In this document: in pieces, positions 36,563 to 39,192 of the stretch
Numbering within the stretch: position 1 is the first letter of the stretch
How the letters are laid out: the number at the start of each line of letters is the position of its first letter
Source of the DNA: Rhodothermales bacterium
GTDB taxonomy: Bacteria > Bacteroidota > Rhodothermia > Rhodothermales > VXPQ01
Direction: 5' to 3'
DNA length: 64,000 nt
Assembly: GCA_951812335.1 (NCBI GenBank)
Contig: OX638293.1
Location: 514,501 to 578,500 of the forward strand
Translations under genes and position numbers: made by a program
The notes under the pieces: generated by a model
The model's input: only the letters and a program-made list of their open reading frames with translations
Told to the model about the DNA's origin: nothing
The model's database searches: none

Positions 36563-36924
36563 GACGCAAAAGATGCTAAAGGGTCCTTGTTACCCGGTCT
36601 ATACGTACCGTGTCAGTTGGCCAAGCACCTCGATAATCGGTTGTGCAAACCTCATGCTACGTCGCACAGCGCTTCGAAAAAAGATTCCCTTATGGAGAAT
36701 GGGTGTATTTGTTGCCTGCGGACCGCCGGGCCGGGCTGGTTTACCCTGTCGAAACATCCTGAAAAATCCCATCCAGCTGCTCGCAAAATACGCCAGAAAA
36801 AAGACATACCGAATTCTTGTACTTTCGTACGATCAGGGGATGTTTGGTTCCTCTCGTTGCTTCTTCGCGGATTCTTCGTTTGCGATGGTATACGCCGCCT
36901 TGCTATGCTGTGCACGTTCTTTGG
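36563..36924. other. Intergenic region between rnc and the riboswitch
   Basis: About 360 bases with no ORF, RNA or repeat I recognise. It should hold the rnc promoter on one side and the promoter of the riboswitch transcript on the other. Confidence 0.5.
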
Positions 36925-37150
36925 TATACGCTTGTCAGGTTCCATGCCCCCGATTCGTCGGGTAAGGATTGGATAACAGGGAATCCGGTGCGCGCCGCAG
37001 GCGCTACTCCGGAGCTGTACCCGCAACTGTAAGCTGCGCAGATATACCGGTCATGACGCACCGCGCCACTGTTCCTGGAATGGGAAGGCAAGGTGTCGAA
37101 CCGGGAGTCGTAGTGCGCGGCAAGCCAGGAGACCTGCCTGCAAGCTATCT
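36925..37150 (+). promoter_or_regulatory. Cobalamin (B12) riboswitch
   Basis: The aptamer core is clear: GGGAATCCGGTG (36980-36991), CGGAGCTGTACCCGCAACTG (from 37010), GGGAAGGC (37082-37089) and the B12 box GCCAGGAGACCTGCC (37124-37138), in the canonical order and spacing. It precedes a TonB receptor gene, the most common target, and would lower receptor synthesis when adenosylcobalamin or a relative is abundant. Confidence 0.93.
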
Positions 37151-37245
37151 GCCGCAAACCTTCGGGAATCAGAGGTTCGTGTGGTGGTCTTTTTGCCCGT
37201 CTGCCCGGTCTCTGCCGAGCGATCGTTGCCTTCTCGGGTCGAGCT

Positions 37246-37281
37246 CATCCCGATCCTCATAAAACTTCGGGATGTTTTATG
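37246..37281 (+). promoter_or_regulatory. Two mutually exclusive hairpins over the receptor start, likely expression platform
   Basis: CATCCCGA (37246-37253) pairs perfectly with TCGGGATG (37267-37274), which covers the only SD-like GGGA. CATAAAAC (37258-37265) pairs perfectly with GTTTTATG (37274-37281), which contains the start codon. Each stem uses the other's loop. This suggests translational control coupled to the B12 aptamer. Confidence 0.6.
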
Positions 37282-39192
37282 ATAGCTCGCCTTCGCGCCC
37301 TTCGTTGCGCACTCCTTCTTCTATTCGTTTTCTCCGGATACCCGACCGCATCGTTCGGCCAGATCCCGGATTCCGTGTTCGCCCTGAAAGAAATCACGGT
37401 TTCCGCCTTGCGGATGGGGGCGCCTGCCTCGCGGGCCCCGCAGCGCATCACGGTGCTTGGACAAGCGGATATCGTTGCCACGGGCTCCCGCACAGTTGCT
37501 GACGTGTTGTCTGCCCGCTCCGGATTCTTCATCCGGCAATACGGACAGGGCTTGGCCACCGTCTCCCACCGGGGCGGAGCGGCGGGGCACACGCAGGTAT
37601 TGATCGACGGCATGCGTCTGTCCGATGCGCAAGCGGGCCAGTTCGATCTGAGCCTGCTTCCGCTCCATCTGTTCGATTCCATGGAGGTGCTGCACGGCCC
37701 CTCGTCCTCTCTCTATGGCGCGGACGGGATGTCCGGCGCCGTGTACCTGCGAGGCGCGCGGGGCGGAGGCGGGCGAGCAAGCGTCGCCACGGAAGTCGGG
37801 GCCTGGGGCGAGTTGCTGACGTCGGCGGGCTGGGCCTTCGGCAAAGGCAGCGTATCCGGCCTCGTTTCCGGGGAATACCGTCGCAGCAAGGGAAATTTTC
37901 CGTACGAAACGGAGACCGTAGAAGAAATGCGGCTCGAAAACGCGGATCGGGAAGGCTGGTCCGTCATGGGTGCGCTGCAAGGCCGCACAGGCCGGCATAC
38001 GCTTCGCGGCGCATTCTTCCACATAGACTGGCAACGACATCTTCCGGGCTCGTCCCTGTTCGGATCCCAGGGAGAACAACAATGGGATACGCACTCGCGC
38101 CTGTGGCTGGAAGATGCGGTGTCGCTGGGCGCCGGGGCCCTTGTCTTGCGCGGATTTCTGCATCGCGGGAAACTCCGGTACCTGAACCCCCACCCTGTAT
38201 GGGGACAGGACAATACCGGGCGCACGACGACGAGCGGGCTGGAAGCCACCTATCGGCTGCCTGCAGGAACCCGTCTGGATGTATCTGCCGGAGCGACCGC
38301 CGGATACGGCGCCGCCGATAACCCTTCTTTGGTATCGTCGGTCTCCGAATTCAGATCGGGCGCGTTCGTTTCGGCGGCGGGTGCATACGGACGCTGGCGG
38401 ATCTACCCGGCAGTTCGGCTCGATACCTATCGCGAGAGCGACCGCACCCTGTCGGCGCTCAGCCCGCGTCTCGGAGCGAACGTACAGCCGTTCGACCGAT
38501 TCCCGCTTTTCGTAAAAGCGAATGTCGGCGGGGGTTTCCGGGTACCTACCTTCAACGACCGGTTCTGGGCGGGCTCCGGCAATCCCGATCTGAAGCCCGA
38601 ACGGTTGTATTCGGCGGACGGGGGTCTACAGATTGACGGGCGGGCGGTGCAATTCGAGGTGTCCGCATACGCCGCGCGGTATTCGAACCGAATCATATGG
38701 ACCCCCGACGACGAGACCGGCTTCGTATGGTCGCCCAAAAACCTGGCGAAGACCCGGTCGCTGGGCATCGAAACGTCGATCTCCGCGCGCGTGAACGAAG
38801 AACTGACCGTGGGGGCGCTGCATACCTGGATGCACGCCGTCGACCGCTCGGATGCGTCTTCTCCCGACTATAACAAGCCGATCCCCTTTTTGCCGGCGCA
38901 CCTCGTGAAGCCCTACGTGTCGGCGAGGTTCGGACGGGTCAGCGTAGACCTGCACGGCCGGTTCATGGATCGCCGCTTCACGACGCCGGCGGCGGACAAG
39001 GAGGATAGCCTCGACCCGGCGTTCGTTGCCGGCGCACAGGTCGGCTGCTTCTGGAATACAGGACCGTTCGGCTGGCGGCTTTCGACGATTGTCGAAAACG
39101 CTTTCGACAAGCAGTACACCATTGTCGAAGGACACCCCATGCCGCCGCGTCACGCACGCCTTCGCCTCGTGCTGCAAACCCGAACCCGCTGA
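37279..39192 (+). CDS. TonB-dependent outer-membrane receptor, BtuB-like
   Basis: 637 residues. Signal peptide (LRALRCALLLLFVFSGYPTASFG), then a plug domain with ITVLGQADIVATGSRTVADVLSARSGFFIRQYGQGLATVSHRGGAAGHTQVLIDGMRLSDAQ and MEVLHGPSSSLYGADGMSGAVYL, followed by a beta-barrel ending in ...RLRLVLQTRTR. The B12 riboswitch upstream makes uptake of cobalamin or a corrinoid the best prediction. No other transport genes for B12 lie next to it. Confidence 0.92.
   Translation: MIARLRALRCALLLLFVFSGYPTASFGQIPDSVFALKEITVSALRMGAPASRAPQRITVLGQADIVATGSRTVADVLSARSGFFIRQYGQGLATVSHRGGAAGHTQVLIDGMRLSDAQAGQFDLSLLPLHLFDSMEVLHGPSSSLYGADGMSGAVYLRGARGGGGRASVATEVGAWGELLTSAGWAFGKGSVSGLVSGEYRRSKGNFPYETETVEEMRLENADREGWSVMGALQGRTGRHTLRGAFFHIDWQRHLPGSSLFGSQGEQQWDTHSRLWLEDAVSLGAGALVLRGFLHRGKLRYLNPHPVWGQDNTGRTTTSGLEATYRLPAGTRLDVSAGATAGYGAADNPSLVSSVSEFRSGAFVSAAGAYGRWRIYPAVRLDTYRESDRTLSALSPRLGANVQPFDRFPLFVKANVGGGFRVPTFNDRFWAGSGNPDLKPERLYSADGGLQIDGRAVQFEVSAYAARYSNRIIWTPDDETGFVWSPKNLAKTRSLGIETSISARVNEELTVGALHTWMHAVDRSDASSPDYNKPIPFLPAHLVKPYVSARFGRVSVDLHGRFMDRRFTTPAADKEDSLDPAFVAGAQVGCFWNTGPFGWRLSTIVENAFDKQYTIVEGHPMPPRHARLRLVLQTRTR

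Follow-up and report, generated by a model that had tools for sequence, protein, structure and literature searches.

A B12 off-switch of a known kind, with a genus-specific and unproven twist, predicted over the start of a BtuB-like receptor gene in Rhodothermales

In the metE corrinoid riboswitch of Priestia megaterium, the regulatory logic of the 3' strand of the P13 hairpin has been shown by mutation (Procknow et al., 2023, PMC10653944; accessible part of the text). The same part of that paper describes the E. coli btuB and env8HyCbl riboswitches, in which a kissing loop stabilises P13 and blocks downstream translation (PMC10653944). A further arrangement, dual attenuation of transcription and translation, is characterised by a terminator whose distance to the start codon is 10 nt or less (Barrick and Breaker, 2007, PMC2258182; accessible part).

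The locus considered here lies in the window, the whole 64,000-nucleotide stretch of DNA that was analysed, from a genome of 2.69 Mb, and is best read as a B12 off-switch of a familiar type to which one genus has added a twist of unproven value. So far as the accessible text on P. megaterium metE goes, its P13 3'-strand mechanism is the same as the pairing found across the order of the source organism (14 of 15 families); however, the window's own genus pairs only weakly at the P13 3' side, and metE uses a transcription terminator, whereas the terminal hairpin of the window lies next to the start codon, carries a short U-tract and is enclosed by an outer clasp. With E. coli btuB and env8HyCbl, as that text presents them, the locus shares P13 and, by prediction, the kissing loop and a block of translation, but their hairpin is one at the ribosome-binding site, whereas the present terminal hairpin stands about 84 nt downstream of the P13 loop (L13) in a window without Shine-Dalgarno signals. 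The dual platforms, in the portion of Barrick and Breaker (2007) available, have a terminator-like hairpin within 10 nt of the start, as do most of the 59 leaders compared below (the gap between hairpin and AUG is 4 nt in the window); unlike them, the window has a short U-tract and a 3' arm without GAGG, and its hairpin holds a complement of the U-tract and AUG.

The receptor gene is flanked by a divergent RNase III gene on one side and a GroES gene on the other, and plug and barrel domains were both detected in its product. In E. coli, the product of btuB is an outer-membrane B12 receptor. The first-pass annotation had placed a cobalamin aptamer upstream of the hairpins at the start codon, and this was confirmed by the sole RF00174 match found in the genome, which is complete over the model (1-189 of 189).

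Positions 36920 to 37155, forward strand: cobalamin riboswitch aptamer (RF00174; cmscan, 90.2 bits), with an L5 loop containing CCCG (UGUACCCGCAAC)
Positions 37279 to 39192, forward strand: gene for a BtuB-like TonB-dependent outer-membrane receptor of 637 aa (PF00593, 7.7e-30, forming a barrel and plug pair with PF07715, 2.1e-20)

The gathering threshold is 31.5 bits. By covariance-model score and L5-L13 complementarity the leader is classed as an RF00174 cobalamin riboswitch, with corrinoid binding and an effect on expression being predicted. A contig scan for relatives returned six loci, two of them close at 94% and 90% identity; the closest named relative found, L060, is from a metagenome-assembled member of the Rhodothermales, and its 94% identity extends over the receptor.

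The comparative analysis drew on a search of 60 genomes, the source genome included, of which 55 carry a cobalamin aptamer. From 71 RF00174 matches, 59 leaders in these 55 genomes were kept, representing 15 families (f1 to f15) of the same order, and the 12 weakest and shortest (24-40 bits) were left out. The window's family, f1, comprises six genomes of one genus, five with an aptamer. Pairings were assessed by a swap test, in which the pairing energy within each genome was compared with that of partners exchanged between families, the value being the fraction of swaps at least as good. MAFFT alignments were left out of the counts because they set the 5' arms of the terminal hairpin out of register and misaligned L055; covariation was counted in a fixed register in 37 of the 59 leaders, the 22 with a different or bulged lower stem being dropped. 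In the literature searched, which included accessible text of PMC10653944, PMC2258182, PMC6847099, PMC12751083 and PMC13273304 and few subscription papers, these leaders are not described.

Several observations were made in assembling this set. The 12 matches left out are low-scoring, 118-156 nt long and found in genomes G007, G018, G021, G028, G031, G037, G040, G046, G052 and G057; all of them are additional matches within families f3 and f14, and they perhaps represent another cobalamin riboswitch subclass. Genome G002, of the same genus as the window, has no RF00174 match, and its RNase III-GroES interval (L070, 665-2588; genes recognised by eye from open reading frames) keeps only a stretch resembling the receptor C terminus (41 residues at 61%), so that riboswitch and receptor gene appear to have been lost jointly. 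Leaders L018, L031 and L045 are similar cobalamin leaders, with L5 GCCCGC and the hairpin CCCGAACCC..; in L018 and L045 the gene that follows seems to be another one, at a greater distance, whose start reads MQT.YTLG by eye.

Two hairpins overlap at the start of the receptor gene. Stem 1 joins CATCCCGA (37246-37253) to TCGGGATG (37267-37274) across a 13-nt loop, and stem 2 joins CATAAAAC (37258-37265) to GTTTTATG (37274-37281) across an 8-nt loop. Both are perfect and lie where the first-pass annotation had put them; the pair U37257-A37282 lengthens stem 2 to 9 Watson-Crick pairs, one more than had been claimed. An outer helix, the clasp, was absent from that account.

Positions 37240 to 37245, forward strand: 5' side of the outer clasp helix, CGAGCU, pairing with 37284-37289 in the minimum-energy fold
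Positions 37246 to 37253, forward strand: 5' arm of stem 1, the terminal hairpin, CAUCCCGA (8 pairs; homologous hairpin across the order)
Positions 37257 to 37265, forward strand: 5' arm of stem 2, UCAUAAAAC (9 Watson-Crick pairs with 37274-37282; seen in the window's genus only)
Positions 37267 to 37274, forward strand: 3' arm of stem 1, UCGGGAUG, containing GGGA (from sequence, fold and genus comparison)
Positions 37274 to 37282, forward strand: 3' arm of stem 2, GUUUUAUGA, containing the start codon and sharing G37274 with stem 1 (from sequence, shuffles and genus comparison)
Positions 37284 to 37289, forward strand: 3' side of the outer clasp helix, AGCUCG, in codons 2-4 (from the minimum-energy fold and genus comparison)

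The arm positions bear out that stem 1 hides GGGA (37269-37272) and stem 2 hides AUG (37279-37281), each within its 3' arm, and that each hairpin uses the loop of the other: the loop of stem 1 holds the 5' arm of stem 2, and that of stem 2 holds the 3' arm of stem 1 except for G37274, the shared base through which the two are mutually exclusive. Hairpin energies are -12.1 kcal/mol for stem 1, -18.9 for stem 1 with the outer helix (CGAGCU/AGCUCG) and -7.5 for stem 2. The minimum-energy fold of the 51-nt element 37240-37290 consists of stem 1 and the outer helix, with AUG in a 9-nt bulge, and none of 200 shuffles folded as well (z = -4.8); the stability of the 155-nt stretch is ordinary against shuffles (z = -0.78; 48/200 as good).

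The arms follow one another in the order S1, S2, S1', S2', which is that of an H-type pseudoknot, and it had been suggested that the two stems might form together in this way. Crossing a stem of 7-8 bp needs several nucleotides. Since the stems share one base, G37274, and the third loop offers 0 nt for crossing stem 1, the two full stems cannot be combined in a pseudoknot; the argument is a geometric one only, the folding program having no pseudoknot model, and the chance that such a structure forms is taken to be very slight.

The reading of GGGA as a Shine-Dalgarno site is likewise doubtful. Upstream of 44 window ORFs, GGAGG and AGGAG were each found 0 times and GAGG twice, against 4, 2 and 5 in control stretches (starts approximate, window only); GGGA was found three times, the receptor gene included, against once in the controls. 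Bacteroidetes are described as lacking Shine-Dalgarno sites, with initiation in Flavobacterium johnsoniae tuned by structure near the start (PMC6847099, accessible part). As the window ORFs show no Shine-Dalgarno signal, GGGA makes better sense as the terminal hairpin's 3' arm than as a site for the ribosome.

In the comparison, stem 1 corresponds to the off hairpin usual in this bacterial order. A terminal hairpin, by eye CCCGRACCUC...GAGGUUCGGG, stands at the gene start across the order and is followed 0-12 nt on by a long in-frame start in 57 of the 59 leaders (the exceptions are L005 and L031); stem 1, whose 5' side carries CCCGAUCCUC, is its local form, and because the genus has no GAGG in the 3' arm, CCUC stays single-stranded within the loop of stem 1. 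Among the five genus members all 40 cells of stem 1 are standard pairs, with one one-sided change, a limited support since five sequences cannot show more. At pair 3, the 37 leaders that share a motif register have C-G 27 times (10 families), U-A 9 times (5 families) and U-G once. The share of standard pairs in this set is 80.8%, whereas 1000 shuffles averaged 75.9% and reached 79.7% at most; pairs 5 and 6 are standard in only 25/37 and 19/37.

Directly 3' of the aptamer sits P13, which the first-pass annotation had overlooked. The strands through which it could act on the terminal hairpin are as follows.

Positions 37157 to 37177, forward strand: P13 hairpin, AACCU/AGGUU, whose loop L13 contains UCGGGA, complementary to L5 CCCG (motif in 59/59 leaders)
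Positions 37162 to 37167, forward strand: L13 UCGGGA, able to pair with L5 or with UCCCGA (37248-37253) of the stem 1 5' arm (6 Watson-Crick pairs)
Positions 37172 to 37179, forward strand: P13 3' strand, GAGGUUCG, the anti-sequester strand in other families (pairs with 37251-37258, one U-U mismatch)
Positions 37251 to 37258, forward strand: CGAUCCUC, possible target of the P13 3' strand (59-leader comparison, swap test)

The motif CCU(U/C)CGGG after the aptamer, together with CCCGCAAC within it, occurs in every one of the 59 leaders, and L5 CCCG faces L13 CGGG in the window and in all of them. A CCU followed by (A/G)GG able to close the P13 stem was likewise found by motif in 59/59; as both strands were found in this way, pairing of the stem in all leaders holds by construction, and L5 and L13, both invariant, give no covariation test. 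The loop of stem 2 was considered as a second L13, its CGGG also matching L5, and was rejected, the P13 next to the aptamer being the one present in 59/59 leaders. A choice between stem 1 and stem 2 as the entire switch was rejected in turn, given that P13 lies between aptamer and platform in all 59.

For the P13 3' strand and the terminal hairpin's 5' arm, own partners pair better than those swapped between families (family mean below 0.5) in 14 of the 15 families (mean 0.17, Wilcoxon p = 6e-5), and it is this strand, rather than stem 2, that competes with stem 1 across the order; the earlier view that the two start-codon hairpins make up the whole decision does not survive the comparison. 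The lone exception among the 15 families is the window's own, f1, in which the pairing is present, with its one U-U mismatch, and is no better than when swapped (0.55). Each of the five genus leaders was folded with three enforced states in which stem 1 is open, kissing loop and ligand being outside the calculation. In the window, their ensemble energies are -45.2 kcal/mol for the P13 3' strand, -45.1 for an upstream hairpin, UCGGG/CCCGA (37234-37238/37249-37253), which opens stem 1 at equal cost, and -46.3 for L13 paired with the arm. L13 pairing is better than P13 3'-strand pairing by 0.9-2.3 kcal/mol in 5/5 genus members and better than the upstream hairpin in 4/5 (not L017). When swapped, the pairing of L13 with the arm gives no order-wide signal (7/15 families, p = 0.41), and the f1 value of 0.06, the strongest of the 15, is about what chance would give for the best of 15. 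What recommends the pairing is that L13 itself would select directly between L5 and the L5 look-alike in stem 1. On these folding calculations, L13 itself or the upstream hairpin may open stem 1 in the window's genus instead of the P13 3' strand. With P13 held, the window leader folds at -45.1 with stem 1 at 0.99, as against -45.2 and stem 1 at 0 in the P13 3'-strand state; with nothing enforced, the 155-nt leader gives stem 1 at 0.99 and P13 at 0.02.

The aptamer, the complementarities and the P13 and terminal hairpins found across the order are observed features of these leaders, and the element probably serves as the expression platform by which a cobalamin riboswitch of known design represses the BtuB-like receptor gene that follows. 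From them we infer a response to ligand, its direction and a translational mode of action. When B12 is bound, L5 of the aptamer would kiss L13 and hold P13 (37157-37177), upon which stem 1 and the outer clasp would close over the start region and the gene would be off. Repression would occur mainly by a block of translation, with weak termination or pausing at UUUU possible. In the absence of B12, the freed P13 sequence would open stem 1: in other families its 3' strand would do so by base-pairing with the terminal hairpin's 5' arm, and in the window's genus it is probably L13 (37162-37167) that would pair with 37248-37253, the same loop that L5 would otherwise hold. Stem 2 would form only after stem 1 has opened. 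All three opened states of the window hide AUG in stem 2 (0.69-1.0), which makes a poor fit with an on state.

The clasp varies in strength between families. Among the five genus members, five of its six pairs are invariant and the sixth is paired in the window only. Against shuffled flanks its mean z is -0.97 over 15 families (Wilcoxon p = 6e-4), the strongest being f14, f15, f13 and f1, with a median p below 0.05 in only f14 and f15 (0.10 in f1, 0.14 in the window itself), and against cross-family swaps 9/15 families fall below 0.5 (p = 0.04). In f15, 54 of 63 clasp cells (85.7%) are paired compared with 17.5-54.0% when the helix is slid, with one-sided changes only. One clasp position of f14 reads U-A in L058 and A-U in L055 by eye, a change kept out of the counts because the aligner misplaced L055. 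Conservation of the clasp may be a coding constraint on codons 2-4. Across families a shorter U-tract goes with a stronger clasp (Spearman 0.52, p = 0.047, n = 15), a correlation that is perhaps driven by f15 alone. In the seven leaders of that family (L020, L032, L033, L034, L037, L044 and L050), the hairpin is almost without a U-tract (1-2 U of 8), and a strong clasp joins the leader to codons 2-3 and to the G of AUG.

These features bear on whether stem 1 and the U-tract form a terminator that cuts transcription short at the start codon once B12 has bound, weakened in the window's genus but working. At least 5 U follow the terminal hairpin within 8 nt in 51 of the 59 leaders, and the layout is near the dual class, as the accessible part of Barrick and Breaker (2007, PMC2258182) defines it. 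The window's own U-tract, however, is only UUUUAUGA (4 U, then A; 5 U in 8), which is a poor terminator, and its hairpin is unlisted by a terminator scan whose loop range of 3-8 excludes a 13-nt loop. Moreover, the platform can probably work without termination, since the seven f15 leaders keep hairpin and clasp with so few U. A working terminator in the window is thus possible, if somewhat unlikely, and repression chiefly at translation is the reading retained.

Stem 2 is real as sequence, has been seen in one genus, and its function is unproven. The complementary run is 9 long in four genus leaders, 7 in the fifth, L028, and no longer than 6 in any of the 54 leaders from other families; the exact pattern, which comprises stem 1 too, was found in 5 of 114 genomes of the order, all of the window's genus. 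A run of 9 arose in 138 of 20000 shuffles of the 20 nt made up of the stem 1 5' arm and most of the loop, a result that is suggestive but weak given that 15 families were examined; with the 492 of 20000 for the run of 7 in L028, it is indecisive for one family of 15. A weaker stem-2-like case is seen in L047 (family f11), where GCAUC, the loop of the terminal hairpin, complements GAUGC at the start codon.

Could the element be a true double switch, in which stem 1 (over GGGA) and stem 2 (over AUG) were both selected as alternative locks on the start site? The complementarity is exact and falls on the start codon, the run is the longest of its kind among the 59 leaders (the next family reaches 6), and CAUAAAA is kept in 5/5 genus members. 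However, seven of the nine pairs of stem 2 are invariant in the genus, and of the others one is wobbled and one broken, both in L028, the sole diverged relative; the four close members, being nearly identical here, amount to about one observation, and the pattern counted in a single genus requires stem 1 as well. Covariation among related leaders had been named as a check; stem 2 shows none among five genus members and has the broken pair. Nor does pairing of the hairpin interior with the sequence after the hairpin give an order-wide signal when own and swapped partners are compared (8/15 families below 0.5, p = 0.45). In the enforced states of the window, stem 2 is predicted whenever stem 1 is opened (0.69-1.0), and in the three other close members it reaches 0.47-1.0, but in L028 the values are 0.0, 0.02 and 0.59, so that it is absent in two of three states, and AUG is free at 0.97 in the P13 3'-strand state. 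A double switch is considered unlikely. In RNA ending 6 nt into the coding sequence, stem 2 stands at 0.98 in L001, 0.37 in L014, 0.96 in L015, 0.08 in L017 and 0.69 in L028; in these models it may form only briefly, until codons 3-4 have been synthesised, though inconsistently across members. At most, stem 2 is a mild damper or a folding intermediate, possible only once stem 1 is open.

A more far-reaching and speculative scenario, to which we give little credence, is that in a lineage without Shine-Dalgarno sites an ancestral B12 terminator at the start codon became a start-codon lock, with a clasp on codons 2-4 and a shrunken U-tract, and that in one genus L13 came to choose between L5 and its look-alike in stem 1, the freed hairpin loop becoming a complement of the U-tract and AUG, with stem 2 as a second gate that damps leak. 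The off-switch of known design remains the preferred reading, and it carries a warning that an eye-catching second hairpin can be a peculiarity of one genus. The locus offers a testable case of riboswitch repression where Shine-Dalgarno sites appear to be missing. More broadly, one B12 switch platform appears to persist throughout a bacterial order, its output end shifting between a terminator-like form with a long U-tract and a start-codon clasp with a short U-tract or none.
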